DNA of 38,341 nucleotides, from IMG/VR virus record IMGVR_UViG_3300037585_003992, positions 1-38,341 of that record; one strand, given 5' to 3'. A program made the position numbers and the translations under genes. Position 1 is the stretch's first letter, and each line of letters begins with the position of its first letter. Below the pieces are notes generated by a model. That model saw only the letters and a list, made by a program, of their open reading frames with translations. It made no database searches and was not told the origin of the DNA. Source of the DNA: a virus. Shown piece after piece: positions 3,498 through 33,397 of this stretch.

Positions 3498-3690
3498 GTG
3501 GGCGGTGTTGGCCGCCGTGACAGCCTTTTACGCTTTCCAGGAAGGACCGTGTTACAGCGTTCGTCAGCCCCAGGTCGGCTTGTATTACGAACAGTTCTTT
3601 AGAAACGGAATAGCATGGGACATCAGTGCCCCGTTCAACCGGTCCAGGGGACCGATGAGCCAGGATTGGACAATCCATGAAGATCATTGA
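3466..3690 (+). CDS. Small unknown protein in the oxygenase operon
   Basis: A 74-residue frame overlapping the previous gene by 32 bases and the next by 14. A later ATG at 3487 would give 67 residues. The N-terminal part (EWAVLAAVTAFYAF) is hydrophobic, too short and weak for a confident membrane span; the rest is aromatic and polar and contains one Cys. No family recognised. It is kept as a gene because it fills the gap in an operon with no other intergenic space. Confidence 0.5.
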   Translation: MMATRCSMSPEWAVLAAVTAFYAFQEGPCYSVRQPQVGLYYEQFFRNGIAWDISAPFNRSRGPMSQDWTIHEDH

Positions 3691-21258: not shown

Positions 21259-21963
21259 ATGGCACAGATTGCCGAAGACTACGTATCACCCTCTGTCCGC
21301 TGGGGGGTCCTCAAACAGGACTACCCCGAAGCGGTCGCTGAGTTCTCCGAGATGACGGGGGTCGAACTCGGTATCCCTGCCAAGTTCGGAGGCGACGACC
21401 ACTACTGCGTCGCGCAGATTCTTCTCCGCCCAACGGACGAGTCCCCCATTGTCGGGTACAAGCCGTTCTCCGACGCCAAGTCCAACAAGAACGACCACCC
21501 GTCTGACGCGTGGAACATCTTGTGCACCAAGGCTCTGGGGCGCGCCCTCAAGAGGGCCGGTTACGCCGACACCGCTGGGGAGATGAAACTCATCGTTCAG
21601 TACAAGCAGCGCAACGCTGAACACGACGCCATCCGTGGTGGCAGTTCACCCGATGCCGACCACGAACACATTGTGGAGGGGCTCACCGAGAAGATCGGGT
21701 CTCCCGAGTTCGCCGTCACCATCGAGAACCACGAGGTCGTTGCCTCCGATGAGTGGGAGAGCGACGAGAGAATGAACGAAGCCCACACTGAACTCAAGGA
21801 GATGGTCAACAAACTGCCTCCCGGCTATGCGGACTCAGCCCGTGAAGCCCACCAAAAACTCAACGGCCGGCAGTGGCCGATCATGAAGGTCAGCCAGTGG
21901 AACTCCATTTTCAACACCGTCACGCACCTCCACGCTGAGGCTGTAGCGGAGATGGGCGAGTGA
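21259..21963 (+). CDS. Possible single-strand annealing protein (Erf/Rad52-like)
   Basis: 234 residues with a strong Shine-Dalgarno. The stretch SDAWNILCTKALGRALKRAGY resembles the TxAxGRALxxxGY pattern found in phage Erf/Rad52-type annealing proteins, and the surrounding segment (HYCVAQILLRP, EMKLIVQYKQRN) could form the matching beta sheet. The C-terminal half is acidic and helical. Neighbours (HIRAN protein, initiator, RusA resolvase) support a recombination or replication role. The family assignment is tentative because the resemblance is one motif; no Walker motif or nuclease motif is seen. Confidence 0.45.
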   Translation: MAQIAEDYVSPSVRWGVLKQDYPEAVAEFSEMTGVELGIPAKFGGDDHYCVAQILLRPTDESPIVGYKPFSDAKSNKNDHPSDAWNILCTKALGRALKRAGYADTAGEMKLIVQYKQRNAEHDAIRGGSSPDADHEHIVEGLTEKIGSPEFAVTIENHEVVASDEWESDERMNEAHTELKEMVNKLPPGYADSAREAHQKLNGRQWPIMKVSQWNSIFNTVTHLHAEAVAEMGE

Positions 21964-22304
21964 AGTCCCCGTTTGAGGTCCCGGTTGCCGGTGTGACATT
22001 CCGTCCCGGCTACCCCAAGAACCTTTGGGACATCGCCGGTGCCATGGTCGAAGTGTTTGGCAAGACGCCGAGGGTCATAGCGACTCTCGTCAGGGAGCCC
22101 CAGAACGAACACGACCCGAACGCCATCAAGGTGCTCGTCGCCGCCGAGCATGTTGGTTACATCCCGTCACGCGAGGCCGGTGGGTTGGCTCCCCTAATGG
22201 ACGCTGGCGAACGGTGGTGTGGTCTGGTAGACCGGCTGGTCATTTCCCCCGAGAACCCAGAGCAGCCTGGGCTGAGAGTGAAGGTGGTCAAGGATGAATC
22301 TTGA
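21960..22304 (+). CDS. HIRAN-domain protein
   Basis: 114 residues, GTG start overlapping the previous stop by four bases. Nearly the whole protein is a HIRAN domain, a fold that binds DNA 3' ends and is often fused to SNF2 helicases: VAGVTFRPGY, then LVREPQNEHDPNAIKVLV and VGYIPSREAGGLAPLMDAG are the classic family segments. Here it is free-standing, and a SNF2 helicase lies 3 kb downstream, so the two may act together at stalled forks (inference). Confidence 0.85.
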   Translation: MKSPFEVPVAGVTFRPGYPKNLWDIAGAMVEVFGKTPRVIATLVREPQNEHDPNAIKVLVAAEHVGYIPSREAGGLAPLMDAGERWCGLVDRLVISPENPEQPGLRVKVVKDES

Positions 22305-22881
22305 CGAACGGATAGCCGAGATTGACGCGATGGCAGGGGACCTCCGCAGGTCTCTCGACGCGGCGATTACCGAAGCCAAAGAGAGCGCTGAGGACCTTGT
22401 CTACGGCCCAGAGAACGACCTCCAGGGCACTGCGAACTCGATGGTGGACCTCTTGGAAGTCATCAAGGCTCACAAGGCGGTGATGCGCGACGTTGACAAC
22501 GAGGCCAACCCGACGCTGGTGACCATCATGGATCACCTAGGGACCCGCAAGTTCGAGAAGGGCGGGCTTCTCGTCGAAAAGAAGCAGTCTTCCTATCGCT
22601 CGAACTGGCAGAACAACGTCCTCATCCGGTCAGTGGTGAACACGGCCATGGACGAGATCGCTGACCGTGAGTACGTCGATCAGGAGACTGGGGAACCGAT
22701 CAGCGAGCGCGCGATTCTGGCTCCGTGGATCGAAGCCATCGTGGAACGCCTGTTGGAGTGCGCCGCATTCCGCGACTGGCGTGTCACAGCGCTACGTGCC
22801 CGCGTCCCCGGCTTGGACCCCGACAACTTCTGCGATGTGAAGCGGTCGAGTAAGGCCACCATCTCCAGGGCTAAGAACTGA
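22294..22881 (+). CDS. Unknown protein of the replication block
   Basis: 195 residues, unknown family. The N-terminal third is a long helix (DERIAEIDAMAGDLRRSLDAAITEAKES), probably coiled coil; the middle KFEKGGLLVEKKQSS contains a Lys-rich strand; the C-terminus is basic. It overlaps neighbours by 11 bases upstream and one base downstream. Placement between a HIRAN protein and an initiator suggests a DNA transaction role. Confidence 0.55.
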   Translation: MNLDERIAEIDAMAGDLRRSLDAAITEAKESAEDLVYGPENDLQGTANSMVDLLEVIKAHKAVMRDVDNEANPTLVTIMDHLGTRKFEKGGLLVEKKQSSYRSNWQNNVLIRSVVNTAMDEIADREYVDQETGEPISERAILAPWIEAIVERLLECAAFRDWRVTALRARVPGLDPDNFCDVKRSSKATISRAKN

Positions 22882-23642
22882 TGGCGATTGAGGTCATGGT
22901 CTGGGTCCTAGAGCAGGACGAGGGCATTACAACAAACGAAAAGTTCGTTCTCCTGGGGATCGCTAACCACAGCCGACCCGACGGCTCGAACGCGTTTCCT
23001 TCGCTGGACACCCTCGCCCGGTACACGCTGCTGTCTCGCTCGACGGTGCAAAGGTGCATCAAGGAGTTGTTGAAGAAGGGTTTCCTGACCTATGAACCAG
23101 GCGGGGGCAGGAAGTCAAACACGTACATAGTTACGATGAACTACCCGAAAGTGGCCCGTTTAGAGGTTATTGAGGGGGGTCAGAGTGACACCCCTGGGGG
23201 GTCAGGCTCTGACCTGGCAGCAGAGTCAAGCCCTGACCCGGCAGCAGAGTCAGGCTCTGACCAAGGAACCGTAATAGAACCGTTATCTACCGTAATAGAA
23301 CCTCGCGCCAGGAAACGCGACGAGGTGTGGGACGCAGTTTTGGACGCGTGTGGGGTGAACGCGTCGAAGATCAACTCCAATGAGCGTGGCCGTTACAACA
23401 AGGCCGTGAAACTGCTCAAGGAGTCTGGTGCCACCGGCGCTGAGATTTACTCCAGGGTTGAGGTTTACCGCCGCAAGTTCAAGGGCGCTGCGGTTACTCC
23501 GGTGGCCATCGCTAACCACTGGTCTGAGTTGGACCCGGCGACCGTCAAGGTTGAAGATGTAGTGGCGACACCTAAGGGGTGGGACGCCATCAAAGAAGTG
23601 CGAGAAGGACGGAACAAGGAGAGCGGCAGCCCATGGGAATAA
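22881..23642 (+). CDS. Replication initiator-like protein with winged HTH
   Basis: 253 residues. Residues about 18-75 form an HTH_36-type winged helix as in phage replication initiators (TNEKFVLLGIANH, FPSLDTLARYTLLSRSTVQR, LLKKGFLTY). A low-complexity linker at about 100-141 (repeats of GSD/AAES/DP and TVIEP) is encoded by DNA carrying iteron-like repeats (next entry), as in lambda O, where the origin lies inside the initiator gene. The C-terminal domain (about 142-235) is helical (ERGRYNKAVKLLKESG) and may contact the helicase loader. The next genes include a loader candidate, as O precedes P in lambda. One-base overlap with the gene before. Confidence 0.72.
   Translation: MAIEVMVWVLEQDEGITTNEKFVLLGIANHSRPDGSNAFPSLDTLARYTLLSRSTVQRCIKELLKKGFLTYEPGGGRKSNTYIVTMNYPKVARLEVIEGGQSDTPGGSGSDLAAESSPDPAAESGSDQGTVIEPLSTVIEPRARKRDEVWDAVLDACGVNASKINSNERGRYNKAVKLLKESGATGAEIYSRVEVYRRKFKGAAVTPVAIANHWSELDPATVKVEDVVATPKGWDAIKEVREGRNKESGSPWE
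23179..23302. repeat. Iteron-like cluster, candidate replication origin
   Basis: Inside the initiator gene stand four related inverted-repeat elements: GTCAGAGTGAC (23179), GTCAGGCTCTGACC (23201), GTCAAGCCCTGACC (23225) and GTCAGGCTCTGACC (23249), spaced 22, 24 and 24 bases; the last three are linked by the repeat GGCAGCAGA. They are followed at once by a more AT-rich stretch with two copies of ACCGTAATAGAACC (23268-23281 and 23289-23302). Iterons beside an AT-rich region within the initiator gene is the lambda ori layout. Function is inferred. Confidence 0.6.
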
Positions 23643-23755
23643 GCAGACAGGGCGATGACACATTCACACTAGGTGAACTTCGTAAGATTCGCGGCCAGGA
23701 CTTGAAGCCGGTGCCTCCGACTAAGAAAAAGAAGGCGAAGGCGAAGAAGCAGTGA
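23633..23755 (+). CDS. Small basic protein
   Basis: 40 residues, ending in a strongly basic tail (TKKKKAKAKKQ) that would bind nucleic acid non-specifically. Overlaps the initiator's end by 10 bases and the next GTG by four (GTGA), so it is embedded in the operon. No family recognised. Confidence 0.55.
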   Translation: MGISRQGDDTFTLGELRKIRGQDLKPVPPTKKKKAKAKKQ

Positions 23756-24069
23756 CTGAGGACCACGCCGACTACGTCCTAGCCAAGTTGAGCGTCGTGT
23801 TCCCGAACAAGACGCTTACGGTGGAAGAGGTCAAGTTCTGGATTGAGAAACTGGTCCCTTACGACTTCGACCATGGGATAGAGGCCGTCGGGATGATTGC
23901 CGATTCCTCAAGGTTCTGGCCGTCGTGGTCCGAGTTCCTTGAGTGCTTGAAAGCCATCGGTCGCCGCCAGCCCGTGCTGGCTTTGCCTGCACCATCTACT
24001 GACCCCGTCACAAAGGAAGAGGCTAGGGCTTACATGGCTGAGATCAGGGAGACGATGCGCCGTGGATGA
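23752..24069 (+). CDS. Possible helicase loader (G39P-like)
   Basis: 105 residues from GTG 23752. The order of features, AKLSVVFPNKTLTVEEVKFWIEKL then YDFDHGIEAVGMIADSSRFWPSWSEFLE, resembles the N-terminal helical domain of phage helicase loaders such as SPP1 G39P (xxLxxxxP xxxSxxEF pattern). The following Pro-rich segment and C-terminal helix would be the flexible loader tail. Position immediately after the initiator supports it. The helicase itself is not in the window apart from the SNF2 protein, so the host helicase may be recruited. Confidence 0.5.
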   Translation: MTEDHADYVLAKLSVVFPNKTLTVEEVKFWIEKLVPYDFDHGIEAVGMIADSSRFWPSWSEFLECLKAIGRRQPVLALPAPSTDPVTKEEARAYMAEIRETMRRG

Positions 24070-25400: not shown

Positions 25401-27629
25401 ATGACTGACACCATGACTCAAGACGAAACCAAAGAAGCCATCTGGATAGCCGTCGTCGCCCTTTCGGCGAACTGCGACGGGGCTCACGCCGAAGACGGCG
25501 TGGGGTTCAACGGAACGGATGCCCCGTTCGGTAACCGCGCCGCCGACATGATGCCCTCCCAATGGTCCGACGCACTCACCTACGAGGCGTACACCATGCT
25601 CGCCAAGTACCGCAAACAGTTGGAGGGCTACGGCTACGTCTATGACGAACTCCCTGTTCCGAAGAAGGTTCTAGGCGACGGCCGCGATGACGCTCGCCAG
25701 GCCGAGTACAAGCGCAAGGCAGCCGACTCCCGTGTCATCGACAAGATCGTCGATGGCCACTTCGTCGTCACAGCCACCTACGACGCCGCGCTGGTTGCCC
25801 AGTTGCGAAAGATCACCGGCGCCCACTGGGTGCCCGACGAGCAGAAGTGGCACGCCCCCGTCGAACAGGGGGCCAGGGTCCGCACGTTCGTTGAGACCAA
25901 CGGCTTCCGCACCACCCCTGAGGTCCAGGAACAACTCGACAAGTTCACCCCCGCCTCCAGCGAGGAACTGACCAAGGTCAAGCGGGAACTGTATTTCGAG
26001 GACGGGAAGTTCACCATGGACTTCGACTACGACCAGCACCTTGTCGCAGCCGTCAAAGACCTTGCTGGCCGACGGTGGGATACGAAGCGCAAGGTGTGGA
26101 CCCTGCCGGCCACGATGGCCCAGTCGGTGGTTGCCCTCGCCGTGAACTTTGACTTCAACTTCGACCCGACGATCCAGGCGCAGGCCATCGAGATGAACTC
26201 CAAGGCTGAGCGTCGCGCTGTCGCTTCTGAGGCCGACGCGTCGACTCTGCACATCCCAGGGATCGGCGATAGGCACCCCTTGACTGGTGCGAAGTTGACC
26301 ATGCACCCCTATCAGGTCGCAGGCGTCGCTTACGCCGTCGATACAAAGCGGTGCTTCATCGCTGACGAAATGGGCCTAGGGAAGTCATGTCAGTCGCTGG
26401 CCTCGGTCCAATACGAGCAGGCGTACCCCCTGCTGGTCGTGTGCCCTGCCACGTTGAAGAACAACTGGGAGCGCGAGGTCCGCATGTGGCTCCCAGGCAA
26501 GACCGTCCACATCGTCGACAACAAGGTCGGTGTGAAGAACTCGGACGTGGTGATTATCAACTACGACATCCTTGACAAGCAGAAGGACGCTCTCAACGCT
26601 GTCGGCTTCCAGTCGCTGGTGTTCGACGAGAGCCACTATGCCAAGAATGCCGCGGCGAAGCGCACGAAGGCGCTCAAGGAGATCGCTGAGGGCATCCCGT
26701 CGATGGTGCTGGCCCTCACCGGTACGCCCGTCCTGAATCGCCCTGTTGAGTTGGTCTCTCAGTTGGAGATTCTGGGGCGGATCGACGAGTTCGGTGGCCC
26801 GTGGAACTTCAAGAAGCGCTACTGCGACGCCCGCAGGAACGGCTATGGCTGGGACTTCGCTGGCGCTTCCAACACTGAGGAACTCAACGCTCTCCTGCGC
26901 CGCACCTGCTATGTGCGTCGCCAGAAGGAGGACGTGTTGAAGGAACTTCCGCCCAAGGCCAAGTACACCATTGAGGCTGACCTCTCGACTGCGAAGGCCA
27001 AGGAGTACAGGGCTATCGAGTCTGACACGATCGTGTGGCTCGCAGAAGAGGGCCGCAACTCCGAGTACGCCGACGCTCTGGCGAAGATCATGATTCTCAA
27101 GCGTCTCGCCGGCGAGGGCAAGGTCGATGCGGCGTGTGAGTGGATCGACACGTTCCTCGACAGCACCGACCGCAAACTGGTCGTGTTCGCCCATCACAAG
27201 GCGGTGGTGAACGCTCTGGCCGACAAGTACGGCGGGCTGAGGGTCGCCGGCGACGATTCGATGAAGGCCCGTCAGGAAGCGATCGACAAGTTCCAGGGCG
27301 ACGACGACGCCCGTGTGATCGTCCTGAATATGAAGGCCGGCGGTGTGGGCATTACGCTTACGGCCGCATCCGACGTGCTGTTCGTTGAGCAGGGCTGGAC
27401 CCCTGCCGAACATGACCAGGCCACTGATCGCTGTCACCGCATCGGGCAGGACGCCTCGGTGGTGTCATCGTGGTATCTGCTGGCTGACGGCACGATCGAC
27501 GACGACATCTTCGAGTTGATCGAGGCTAAGAGGTTGGTGGTGGACGCCGTGACCGACGGCGAGGACGATCTCGCCGTGTCAGTGATGAACGGCCTCATCG
27601 ACAAGTTGGTGAAGCGGGCCAATGACTGA
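25401..27629 (+). CDS. SNF2-family helicase, SMARCAL1-like
   Basis: 742 residues. The SF2 ATPase core is complete: Walker A DEMGLGKS (K328), motif Ia VVCPATLKNNW, Walker B DESH (D409), motif III LTGTP, motif V MKAGGVGITLT, and motif VI DQATDRCHRIGQ. N-terminal residues about 112-160 and 198-240 are two copies of a HARP-like module (HFVVTATYDAALVAQL / HWVPDEQKWHAP; DFDYDQHLVAAVK / WDTKRKVWTLP), the arrangement that makes SMARCAL1 an annealing helicase rewinding single strands. In a phage this may remodel forks or recombination intermediates. The stop overlaps the next gene by eight bases. Confidence 0.9.
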   Translation: MTDTMTQDETKEAIWIAVVALSANCDGAHAEDGVGFNGTDAPFGNRAADMMPSQWSDALTYEAYTMLAKYRKQLEGYGYVYDELPVPKKVLGDGRDDARQAEYKRKAADSRVIDKIVDGHFVVTATYDAALVAQLRKITGAHWVPDEQKWHAPVEQGARVRTFVETNGFRTTPEVQEQLDKFTPASSEELTKVKRELYFEDGKFTMDFDYDQHLVAAVKDLAGRRWDTKRKVWTLPATMAQSVVALAVNFDFNFDPTIQAQAIEMNSKAERRAVASEADASTLHIPGIGDRHPLTGAKLTMHPYQVAGVAYAVDTKRCFIADEMGLGKSCQSLASVQYEQAYPLLVVCPATLKNNWEREVRMWLPGKTVHIVDNKVGVKNSDVVIINYDILDKQKDALNAVGFQSLVFDESHYAKNAAAKRTKALKEIAEGIPSMVLALTGTPVLNRPVELVSQLEILGRIDEFGGPWNFKKRYCDARRNGYGWDFAGASNTEELNALLRRTCYVRRQKEDVLKELPPKAKYTIEADLSTAKAKEYRAIESDTIVWLAEEGRNSEYADALAKIMILKRLAGEGKVDAACEWIDTFLDSTDRKLVVFAHHKAVVNALADKYGGLRVAGDDSMKARQEAIDKFQGDDDARVIVLNMKAGGVGITLTAASDVLFVEQGWTPAEHDQATDRCHRIGQDASVVSSWYLLADGTIDDDIFELIEAKRLVVDAVTDGEDDLAVSVMNGLIDKLVKRAND

Positions 27630-29817: not shown

Positions 29818-30067
29818 GAAACGAGCGACTGCTCAAGCCGACATCATAGAAAGGGTCCAGGAGAGCCACCGCGACGTAGTCCAGGCTCGAAACGACTACC
29901 ACGCGGCTCAGGACAACTACCTGCTGGTCTTGCGTGAAGCGAGGGAGGACGGGGAAACCCTAGAGAACCTCGCGGACGCCGTTGGGTGCTCCAAGCAGTG
30001 GGTCCACAAGTGGACAACCTTCGGGCGGGACCACAACAAGGTATACAGTGGGCAGGCTGTCGCCTAA
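29810..30067 (+). CDS. Small helix-turn-helix protein
   Basis: 85 residues from the ATG at 29810, chosen over 29786 for the AAGGAAGG just upstream. A long N-terminal helix (IIERVQESHRDVVQARNDYHAAQ) is followed by an HTH (DGETLENLADAVGCSKQWVHKW) like sigma region 4. Same two-part build as the protein at 24622. It precedes the ParB-type genes and may regulate them. Confidence 0.65.
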   Translation: MPKKRATAQADIIERVQESHRDVVQARNDYHAAQDNYLLVLREAREDGETLENLADAVGCSKQWVHKWTTFGRDHNKVYSGQAVA

Positions 30068-30075
30068 GGGGTCTT

Positions 30076-31383
30076 GTGTCGAAAATCGCTGTTGATCTGG
30101 AAGGGAATGCTGTCCCGATTGGCTCTATTCAGTCGCATCCGGCCAATCCTCGAAAAGGGGACATCCAGGGCATCGCTGAGAGCCTGAGAGTCAACGGGCA
30201 GTATTCCCCGGTCATCGTTGATGGTGAAGGCAACATTCTGGCAGGCAATCACACCTGGAGGGCCGCGAAGTTCCTCGGTTGGGACGAAATCGCGGTTCTC
30301 CAGGTGGATGTCGACGCCCAACAGGCCAAACGCATCCTTTTGTCCGATAATCGGACTTCCGATTTGGCGACTTATGACCGTCAGAGCCTCATTGAGTTGA
30401 TTGAGGCCATGAAACCCGATTTGGAGGGTTCCGGTTGGGATGAGAGGTCGTTGGAACGTCTTTACCAACTCGAAGAAGACCCCGAAGACCTCTTTTCGGG
30501 CGAAAAAGGCAAAACGAGCAAGTTGGGCGAGACAACGCGCAAAATCCATGTTGGGAAGAACCTCCTGATCGTCGATTCGGACCATTTCAAGGAGTGGTTC
30601 GAGGGTTTAGGCGAAAAAAGCGTCGCGGTGCTTACCATTCGGGAGCGTTTGGGTCTTACAGACGATCCAGAGCCAAAACCGGTCAAAACCGGCAAACGCT
30701 GGAGCAACATTTCGGGTCCGACACCCGTCCACGAGGCCCTAAACGGCTGTGTCCAGGTTCCGACGGATTCTTTGACCCCTCACCCCGAAAATGCCCGCCA
30801 GGGCGACGTAGGGGCCATTTCTGAGTCTCTAAGAGTGTCTGGGATGTACCGACCTCTCATTGTCCAGGAGTCTTCCAACTTGATTCTCAAGGGAAACAAC
30901 ACTTGGCAGGCTGTTAGGTCCCTGGGGTGGGAAACAGTGCCCGTCGTCTTCCTCGATGTCGATGACGAACAGGCAAAGAGGGTCATGCTGGCCGACAACC
31001 GCCTAGCGGACAAGGCCGGCTACTACAACACCGCTCTGGCGGAGGTCCTGATGGACCTTGACAGTCTCGACGGGACAGGATTCGCGCCTGGGGACATCGA
31101 CGACATCTTGAAAGACCTCCCGCAGGAGCGCGACCCGGCAGCAACCATCCACGCGCCGGCGAATGTGCGTAGGGTGGCGTCTGTCAAGATCGGAGCGATC
31201 GGTATTTCAGTTTGTGGCAAGCAATACGCCGATTGGGAACAGGACCTGATCGCTGAGGGTTACATGGGGAAAGAAGAACGCGGCCTTCGCATTGGGGAAC
31301 TACTCCAACTCGACCCTTCCTTGTTCGAGGTTTGGGCGTCGGTCGCTGACCCAACCACAGGCAATAAGGAGTTCGTGAAATGA
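30076..31383 (+). CDS. Protein with two tandem ParB-type units
   Basis: 435 residues from GTG 30076, with AAGGGG just upstream. Two ParB/Spo0J N-terminal-like domains: residues about 9-110 (HPANPRKGD, SLRVNGQYSPVIV, ILAGNHTWRA, QAKRILLSDNR) and about 226-335 (HPENARQGD, SLRVSGMYRPLIV, ILKGNNTWQA, QAKRVMLADNR). Each is followed by a similar tail of about 75 residues (HVGKNLLIVDSDHFKEWF / KIGAIGISVCGKQYADWE, both ending I..RL.L or I.ELL.L), so a whole unit of about 210 residues was duplicated. Free ParB domains in phages may bind DNA or hydrolyse CTP; phage ones also sit in DNA-modification loci. The second copy has Asn for His in GN(H/N)TW. Confidence 0.78.
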   Translation: MSKIAVDLEGNAVPIGSIQSHPANPRKGDIQGIAESLRVNGQYSPVIVDGEGNILAGNHTWRAAKFLGWDEIAVLQVDVDAQQAKRILLSDNRTSDLATYDRQSLIELIEAMKPDLEGSGWDERSLERLYQLEEDPEDLFSGEKGKTSKLGETTRKIHVGKNLLIVDSDHFKEWFEGLGEKSVAVLTIRERLGLTDDPEPKPVKTGKRWSNISGPTPVHEALNGCVQVPTDSLTPHPENARQGDVGAISESLRVSGMYRPLIVQESSNLILKGNNTWQAVRSLGWETVPVVFLDVDDEQAKRVMLADNRLADKAGYYNTALAEVLMDLDSLDGTGFAPGDIDDILKDLPQERDPAATIHAPANVRRVASVKIGAIGISVCGKQYADWEQDLIAEGYMGKEERGLRIGELLQLDPSLFEVWASVADPTTGNKEFVK

Positions 31384-31817
31384 GAGGTTTGATTCAGTCG
31401 ATCGTCCGAGTGTTCGACAACCTGTTGATGTACTTCTGCGCCATCATGCTCGGGGGTCTGCTCGCCCTGCTGGTGTACTTGATCCTGTTCGCCAGCCCTG
31501 CTGGGGCGCTCATCAACACGCCTGGGCAGGACGACGGCGGTTACATCCACATGACCCCCCAGGAGGTCGCCGTCAGGGTCAAGGACCTGTTCGCCGATCC
31601 GAACCGGCGGGGCTCTGAGACGCCAACCTTCTCCGATGACGGGACGATCGTCTTGTCGGGGACGCCGTACTGGCTTCTGATCGAGGCGGGCTTCTCCGAG
31701 TATTTCGTGTCCAGGTTTGACACGGTGCTCCGTTACGACGACCCGTTTTGGGCAGTGCAGGTCGCTGAGCACCCGACGTTCTCGGAGTGGCAGTATTCGT
31801 ATTCGCTAACGCGATGA
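31380..31817 (+). CDS. Membrane-anchored unknown protein
   Basis: 145 residues. Residues about 14-43 (LLMYFCAIMLGGLLALLVYLILF) are one strong membrane span or uncleaved signal, followed by ASPAGALI, where a signal peptidase could cut. The rest, about 100 residues, is soluble and mostly polar and would lie outside the membrane. No lysin motif. Overlaps flanking genes by four bases each (ATGA). Confidence 0.65.
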   Translation: MRGLIQSIVRVFDNLLMYFCAIMLGGLLALLVYLILFASPAGALINTPGQDDGGYIHMTPQEVAVRVKDLFADPNRRGSETPTFSDDGTIVLSGTPYWLLIEAGFSEYFVSRFDTVLRYDDPFWAVQVAEHPTFSEWQYSYSLTR

Positions 31818-33397
31818 GCGCTAGGCCAACGAAGTTTGTTCATGTCGAACTGGTCGACATCAACTCGTTGGCTAAGGCCCCGTACAACCCGAGGCGCACC
31901 GATCCGCACCGGTACGAACTTGTAAAGACATCACTCAAGAAACTTGGGTGGCTGCTGCCCATGTACGTGACCCCAGAAGGGGTCGTCCTCTCCGGTCATC
32001 AACGCCTTGATGCAGCCCGCGAACTCGGCGCCAACAAGGTTCCAGTCGTGGTGCTCCACGGCCTGGACCACGAACGTCGGCGTGGCGTGAACATCGTGTT
32101 CAACAGGGCCACGAACGACATGCACAAACACGATTCTGGGGAGAGCCTCGCCGAACGCCTCCCCAGGACAGTCATCGAGGAAGCCATCTCAGGTTTACCT
32201 GACATCAAGGTTGATTCTGATGCCTGGTACCCGTGCCTGAACATTGAGGTCGCCGACACCAGGGAAGTGATGGCTAAGAACATCACTCACTTCATTCCGC
32301 ATGCCATCCGCCAGGCCGAGAGTCTCTTTCACTGGGCTAAGACCTCGATCCCGCTAGTGGCCACCAGGAAGAGGAGGGTCGTCAACGGCCTGGGTCGTCT
32401 TCAACATGCTGCCGAGACTGGCATACCTGACGTGCAGATCATCACCGTTAGGGACAAGGCAGCCGACCTCGCCAGGATCATGCTGAACCACCTGTCGATG
32501 GACTTCGACCTGGAGGACAAGTACGCCGACGTTCTTCGCTACAACTCGTTCCGGCGGGCCTCGAACCGTCAGGCGCACCTCATGCCGGCCATGGTGTGCG
32601 ACATGATGACCGCCATGTCTAAGACGGGGACGACACAGCGGGCTTCGTCAGTTTTCGATGTCAATAACGAGAAGCACGTCAAGGCGTGGAAACGCTGGTA
32701 CGGAGAAACCGTCCTGGACTTCGGTGCGGGCCTCCTCGACAAGTCCCTGCTGTTGCAAGACAACATGGGTGTGGACTGCGTGGCGTTCGAGCCGTATTAC
32801 ACAGGCGGCAAGGACTCAGGGTTCGACATTGACGCCGCCAGGTACATCACCGACTGCTTCCTCGCCAGGGTCGCGGATGGGACAGAGTTTGATTCGATCT
32901 TCCTGGCGTCGGTGCTCAATAGCGTGCCTTTCAAGTCAGACAGGGACCACATCGTCACCCTGGTGGCCGCTCTATCCACACCAGGAACAACCGTTTACGC
33001 GGGTGCCATCTCCAGGTCAGCGGACCGTTACTTCGCGGCCATGGGGATGAAGGACAACGTGTCGAACCATGAGACCCAGTTCGATTCGTCGTTCGCTGCC
33101 GGTTACGAAGAGGGCGTGGTCGTGTCTGACCTGGTCAAGCACCCAAAGGTACAGAAATACTTCACCGTGGACGAGTGGCGGGACCAGTGGCTCCAGGGAT
33201 TCTCGGATGTGCACGCGTATGCGTACAAGCCGAACAAACTTGTACATGCCCAATGTCGAGATGCCAAACCTGTCGACCCGAGGGCCCTAGCGCAGGCGAT
33301 CCGGTTCGAGTTCGATCTCCCCTACCCAGAAGGGGCCCTGAACCGTGTTGAGGAGGCCTTTGACGCCTTCTCCCGGCGGTTGAAGATGGCGTTGTAA
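31814..33397 (+). CDS. ParB domain fused to a SAM methyltransferase-like domain
   Basis: 527 residues from ATG 31814 (ATGA overlap). The N-terminal ~95 residues are a ParB domain (VDINSLAKAPYNPRRTD; KLGWLLPMYV; LSGHQRLDAARELG). Residues about 295-450 are a class I methyltransferase: motif I VLDFGAG at 300, acidic ribose-binding turn AFEPY, and motif IV region EFDSIFLASVLNSVPF (D360). No NPPY-type motif, so it is not a standard amino-methylase. The region between is helical and may bind DNA. The domain pair suggests a sequence- or site-directed modifying enzyme; the base or group transferred is unknown. A CmoA homologue 0.5 kb downstream could supply an unusual cofactor. Confidence 0.75.
   Translation: MSARPTKFVHVELVDINSLAKAPYNPRRTDPHRYELVKTSLKKLGWLLPMYVTPEGVVLSGHQRLDAARELGANKVPVVVLHGLDHERRRGVNIVFNRATNDMHKHDSGESLAERLPRTVIEEAISGLPDIKVDSDAWYPCLNIEVADTREVMAKNITHFIPHAIRQAESLFHWAKTSIPLVATRKRRVVNGLGRLQHAAETGIPDVQIITVRDKAADLARIMLNHLSMDFDLEDKYADVLRYNSFRRASNRQAHLMPAMVCDMMTAMSKTGTTQRASSVFDVNNEKHVKAWKRWYGETVLDFGAGLLDKSLLLQDNMGVDCVAFEPYYTGGKDSGFDIDAARYITDCFLARVADGTEFDSIFLASVLNSVPFKSDRDHIVTLVAALSTPGTTVYAGAISRSADRYFAAMGMKDNVSNHETQFDSSFAAGYEEGVVVSDLVKHPKVQKYFTVDEWRDQWLQGFSDVHAYAYKPNKLVHAQCRDAKPVDPRALAQAIRFEFDLPYPEGALNRVEEAFDAFSRRLKMAL

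Follow-up and report, generated by a model that had tools for sequence, protein, structure and literature searches.

A candidate replication origin of palindromic iterons and an 11-nt array inside a phage initiator gene

Results

The stretch of DNA analysed here, which we call the window, is an entire IMG/VR virus record of 38,341 bases (IMGVR_UViG_3300037585_003992) in which tail tape-measure and large-terminase genes are present. The large terminase is nearest to those of phages of methanogens (psiM2, psiM100), Gordonia and Brevibacterium at about 40-46% identity, and a DNA similarity search against annotated phages returned short matches only. Three genes spanning the contig ends (37435-37983, 232-855 and 857-1558) share a match to one C-terminal region of phrog_61, which suggests a circularly permuted, near-complete genome. 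At 1-531 on the minus strand, tandem 12-nt repeats at 2-178, also detected at period 24, encode GGKN-type repeats, or Pro/Phe repeats when read on the plus strand, and similar repeats were seen near the ends of the records of two relatives (L024 and L007). ParB-like N domains were found in two genes (29986-31383 and 31787-33397), the second of which matches phrog_5475 over its whole length. The window was searched for DnaB_C and DNA_pol_A domains and neither was found, so the phage probably uses host enzymes.

The gene at 22881..23642 on the plus strand encodes a 253-aa protein that we assign as a replication initiator. It carries a PF13730 (HTH_36) domain at its N terminus (E 2.9e-13, 49.8 bits against a gathering cut-off of 25) and matches the replication initiation families PHROG 270, 1032, 678, 8540 and 391 with E values of 7e-15 to 2e-13. 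AlphaFold2 modelling divided the product into a winged-helix DNA-binding domain (aa 1-86, codons 22881..23138, plus strand, block pLDDT 65-92), a disordered linker (aa 89-144, 23145..23312, plus strand, pLDDT <50) and a C-terminal helical domain (aa 147-220, 23319..23540, plus strand, pLDDT ~85-93) whose role is proposed from the model. Structural neighbours of the winged helix included the DnaD N domain, the pSK41 RepA N domain and RctB domain 1. Chains 4pql, 4pt7 and 5kbj, which are titled as initiator or Rep structures and which we take to be RepA_N proteins, were also among the structural matches of the N domain. With Foldseek E values of 0.03 or more the PDB matches reflect a common fold, and because many regulators (MarR, Fur, LexA) are also in the fold-search list they support the fold and not a family. 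Pfam searches of the initiator at E up to 0.1 gave no match to Phage_rep_O or to RepA_N (PF06970), the likeness to the latter being one of fold only.

Downstream of the initiator, as the earlier note had claimed, lies a helicase-loader-like gene (23752..24069, plus strand). Its 105-aa product matched phrog_2289 (helicase loader, E 2e-4) and has a homologue in all relatives. SPP1 G39P (1no1) was its top profile match (E 0.007), its best Foldseek match (prob 1.00, TMt 0.78) and its best VIA-align match (Z 8.3 with the next at 6.4, rmsd 1.7 over 64 residues), each of the three being moderate alone. Between the initiator and loader genes there is a short reading frame of ~40 aa (23633-23755, plus strand) that is lysine-rich. 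Further 3' of the loader-like gene is an SNF2-type helicase gene (25401-27629) with a weak HARP match. HIRAN domains are usually fused to SNF2-type helicases; in the window a HIRAN-domain gene stands alone at 21960-22304, near the SNF2-type gene.

Four related inverted repeats (23179-23261) lie in the linker codons of the initiator gene. Iteron 1 (GTCAGAGTGAC, 23179-23189) has the form GTCA-N3-TGAC, and iteron 2 (GTCAGGCTCTGAC, 23201-23213), iteron 3 (GTCAAGCCCTGAC, 23225-23237) and iteron 4 (GTCAGGCTCTGAC again, 23249-23261) have the form GTCA-N5-TGAC, so that the centre of the dyad is 3 nt in the first and 5 nt in the other three. Their start-to-start distances are 22, 24 and 24 nt. Of the 10 matches to GTCAN{3,5}TGAC across all 38,341 bases, four fall within 83 bp. 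When synonymous codons were shuffled with the protein fixed, 0/2000 shuffles reached four dyads in 150 bp, and therefore the protein does not account for the iterons.

Iteron 4 is followed after 5 nt by an AT-richer array of ~11-nt units, AACCGTAATAG / AACCGTTATCT / ACCGTAATAG / AACC (23267..23302, plus strand), which is the sole array of this kind within the window and a candidate unwinding element. The stretch 23262-23302 is 59% AT compared to 41% for the window, a value reached by only 0.3% of 41-nt windows. Two copies of ACCGTAATAGAACC are present at 23268-23281 and 23289-23302, and ACC at 23268, 23279, 23289 and 23300 assigns both of these 14-mers to the array of ~11-nt units. The earlier note had described the four inverted repeats at 22-24 nt spacing, the AT-richer stretch with its two ACCGTAATAGAACC copies and their placement in the linker-coding part of an HTH initiator gene, and all of this was borne out. 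The array sequence TTATCTACC was considered as a DnaA box and rejected, since relatives do not retain it.

Predicted disorder at residues 89-144 coincides precisely with the repeat-bearing codons. As the linker is disordered, its protein sequence is free to vary, which leaves room in its codons for signals at the DNA level. The linker also contains short repeated peptides, and a low-complexity linker selected as protein could in principle leave DNA repeats as an incidental by-product; we give this explanation almost no weight, as synonymous shuffles that keep the protein abolish the signal, the 11-nt period is read in three frames and fixed residues keep fixed codons.

Conservation was assessed in 14 further distinct initiators, 57-92% identical, from viral contigs and one genome contig. 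One homologue is on a Gemmatimonadetes MAG contig, a placement that may be a binning accident. Across the 14 homologues the linker protein diverges while its DNA signals stay, the reverse of the pattern that the earlier note had named as speaking against an origin. Codon identity at positions encoding the same residue was 0.29-0.49 in the two folded flanking domains whereas most repeat-region blocks gave 0.53-1.00, with one block at 0.36, values up to 81% outside the array block and 100% within it. In nine representatives a single codon was used at 9/10 conserved degenerate positions of the array whereas beyond the linker region this held for 2/142 (with columns treated as independent, Fisher p 6e-12). 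The repeats are under selection at the DNA level. The relatives have 1 to 5 iterons, with dyads mostly at fixed slots 18, about 41, 65 and 84-88 nt 5' of the array; the slot of iteron 1 is kept in most relatives and one half of iteron 3 is degraded in L003. The gap between the last dyad and the array is 4-5 nt in all relatives except L018, where that slot is degenerate, and weak or degenerate iterons were observed in L018, L019 and L023-L026.

The 11-nt unit structure is plainer in the relatives than in the window, their array being AACCGTTATAT AACCGTAATAC AACCGAAATAG AACC with a period of 11, read in three frames. In 9/14 relatives 0/1000 synonymous shuffles reached this array, and the dyads of L005, L007, L008, L016 and L028 also beat nearly all shuffles; as the dyad motif was taken from the window, the relatives are only partly independent in this test. 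L031 (2035-2715) and L032 (2035-2712) each encode a homologue of the initiator too, with the loader present and the gene order unchanged. These homologues have a short linker, and a search of the two initiator genes for iterons and array found none present. We consider L031 and L032 to be a natural case of an origin that moved or was lost, with the origin elsewhere or of another form.

Constraint of this kind could also be imposed by an RNA structure or an overlapping gene, as the region can fold (window z -1.7) and antisense ORFs overlap in the window. We regard this as very improbable. Folding is weakly better than in shuffles and the energy per base falls to -0.16 kcal/mol in relatives, conservation falls on the repeat letters themselves and not on pairing alone, and stops are found in the antisense and alternative frames in almost all relatives.

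The earlier note had also proposed GC skew as a check and took a minimum lying elsewhere as evidence against the origin. The minimum is at 1505 (2297 detrended) and not at the initiator. It follows coding-strand changes, and it is also off the initiator in the records of two relatives. Because skew tracks the coding strand in an almost one-strand phage genome it is weak evidence on the origin, and we did not retain it as an origin marker.

The occurrence of the array outside this family was evaluated with the pattern GAACCGTNATANAACCGTNAT, which in 2.9 million contigs detected 16 stretches, one per contig, 13 of them within the window's initiator family. In L051 and L054 the initiators are different ones and their palindromic iterons are unrelated, but the same array comes after them. 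The L056 match, an AACCGT array at position 3660 on the reverse complement with further ACCGTTAT/CCGTAAT-like units, lies in no long reading frame and is possibly an intergenic origin. A strict three-unit pattern gave nine stretches, four of them in initiator-like genes (L054, L065, L068 and L071), and L065, L068 and L071 carry iterons of their own together with the array. The remaining five were other low-complexity repeats (L067, L070, L072) or lay outside long frames (L066, L069), so the motif alone is no proof of an origin. Using the array alone as the query in a similarity search gave weak or unrelated matches only.

So that the array would not guide the choice, initiators were next gathered by protein homology alone, giving 136 genes of which 56 were at <70% identity. 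Chains of at least three AACC spaced 10-13 nt were detected in 18/56 genes compared to about 2 (2.0-2.1) expected with the protein fixed. Among the 256 tetramers AACC came top, both over the full set and in the 43 genes that had not been seen earlier (9/43 vs 1.3 expected). The 10-13 nt range was picked after the first cases, and the unseen genes and a lag test over 5-30 nt served as controls. Distances between AACC motifs peaked at 11 and 22 nt and GGTT showed nothing comparable, indicating that the orientation of the array is fixed. Of 19 genes, namely the 18 with AACC chains and that of Lactococcus phage Tuc2009, 13 have a 12-mer repeated in at least three copies upstream of the array and 2 have one downstream. 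AACC chains in 346 kb of phage DNA were confined to initiator genes.

The window contains one TACC unit, leaving an AACC chain of two that is missed by plain AACC counting, and the lag test was added for this reason. This motif-free test was run on 31 initiator genes of diverse phages, each with three or more iterons, and covered the 75 nt that follow these; the gene set includes some that had been inspected earlier. The pooled z was 11.1 at lag 11 and 6.7 at lag 22, which the protein does not explain, and every other lag in the 5-30 nt range had a z of -3.3 to 2.1. The usual form of the 11-nt array in phage initiators is AACC-N7, and genes without an AACC chain often show, by eye, variants such as AATCCGTCCTTT AACCATCCTTT AACC. 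Iteron sequences vary between phages and the array recurs at the same place beside them in phages of many unrelated hosts.

Discussion

The dyads could be operators, with the winged-helix protein regulating its own operon through intragenic sites and no origin involved. Palindromes and a winged helix would fit a repressor too, and MarR, Fur and LexA appear in the fold search. We consider this unlikely. The sites are ~300 nt inside the gene and beside an equally constrained AT-rich array that no operator needs, the PHROG families and the adjoining G39P-like loader indicate replication, and the layout recurs in phage initiator genes, with the array also found in a Tuc2009 gene annotated with an origin.

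We therefore favor the reading that the locus is an origin of theta-type replication lying within the gene that encodes its initiator, a candidate from the sequence to which we give a probability of about 0.88. From the arrangement of the repeats and the protein matches we infer how such an origin may operate. Dimers of the initiator would use the N-terminal winged helix to bind the four palindromes, which are spaced about two helical turns apart. The assembled complex would then strain the AT-richer 11-nt array on the 3' side, and the array would melt and perhaps be held single-stranded. The C-terminal domain and the 105-aa G39P-like loader would recruit the host replicative helicase. The array itself is part of a widespread module, since many phage initiator genes have iterons of unrelated sequence and, behind them, AACC-type units at 11-nt intervals.

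Origins within a gene are already known as a plan, and what was unexpected here is the common 11-nt array beside exchangeable iterons. We found no description of such an array in the open-licence literature, where sequences are hard to search as words. The chances seem to us evenly balanced that HTH_36-type origins share a modular code, in which iterons at ~22-nt spacing change with the DNA-binding domain and are followed by an 11-nt AACC-type array in fixed phase that persists where the iterons and the C-terminal part of the initiator differ. If so, the array would be read by a shared reader, either the winged helix or linker acting on single-stranded DNA or a host protein that widely different bacteria have in common. 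This raises the question of what reads a putative strand-opening element that stays constant while the adjacent iterons are replaced. The rule of iterons at ~22-nt spacing followed by 11-nt AACC-type units on the coding strand, within linker codons, could serve to locate origins in uncultivated phages by sequence alone.

The earlier note had likened the locus to the lambda O/P/ori plan in a phage of a different host group; judged by nearest hits, the host group may indeed differ. In lambda, the origin lies inside the initiator gene (PMC6022878, PMC7466680), with four hyphenated-dyad iterons and then an AT-rich region mid gene, and the loader gene downstream (PMC6022878). Lambda ori served as a positive control and scored in the same repeat test, with iteron starts 20, 24 and 23 nt apart. 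The window is alike in its four iterons, AT-rich stretch, mid-initiator position and downstream loader, and this order upholds the comparison. It fails for the loader, which is SPP1 G39P-like and not lambda P-like, and the window's initiator has no Phage_rep_O match. Lambda O, as well as P22 gene 18 and TP901-1 rep, is without the AACC array with its 11-nt spacing, so the array is not universal.

Given the resemblance of the loader to SPP1 G39P, the layout is as SPP1 38/39-like as it is lambda O/P-like. SPP1 genes 38/39 and oriL place origin repeats and an AT-rich unwinding element inside the initiator gene, with a small loader, gp39, and SPP1 encodes its own DnaB-type helicase, gp40 (PMC6316719). 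The loader is alike in profile and fold, whereas no DnaB-type helicase was found in the window; the comparison with SPP1 covers the proteins and the published layout. RepA_N plasmids of the pSK41 type have a winged-helix N domain, an origin-coding linker and a C domain, and their Rep boxes lie in the middle of rep (PMC5703833). The hybrid initiator of pPR9 has a pfam13730 (HTH_36) N domain and a rep region that supports autonomous replication (PMC5703833). The window's initiator follows the same domain plan as the pSK41-type proteins, but RepA_N is another DNA-binding family and the match is one of common fold only.

The rep gene of Tuc2009 (orf16), which its record describes as 'contains origin of replication', carries AACC four times exactly 11 nt apart, a pattern reached by 10/5000 synonymous shuffles. 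This protein is without an HTH_36 match and has a Rep_Org_C C-terminal domain, the array being what it has in common with the window. Iterons were sought upstream of the Tuc2009 array with the repeat test and none was clear. After the array in Tuc2009 rep (L197 7438-7550) there is a run of GGATAG/GGTTAG repeats, reminiscent of DnaA-trio-like TAG repeats.

The initiators of KHumphrey, LittleTokyo, vB_Pae_U2, TurkishDelight and Pavtok, from phages of Arthrobacter, Pseudomonas, Streptomyces and Erwinia, are like that of the window in having an HTH_36 N domain (tested in all but LittleTokyo) and linker iterons mostly 22-24 nt apart. Their iterons are unrelated in sequence to those of the window, and are followed by AACC every 10-13 nt.
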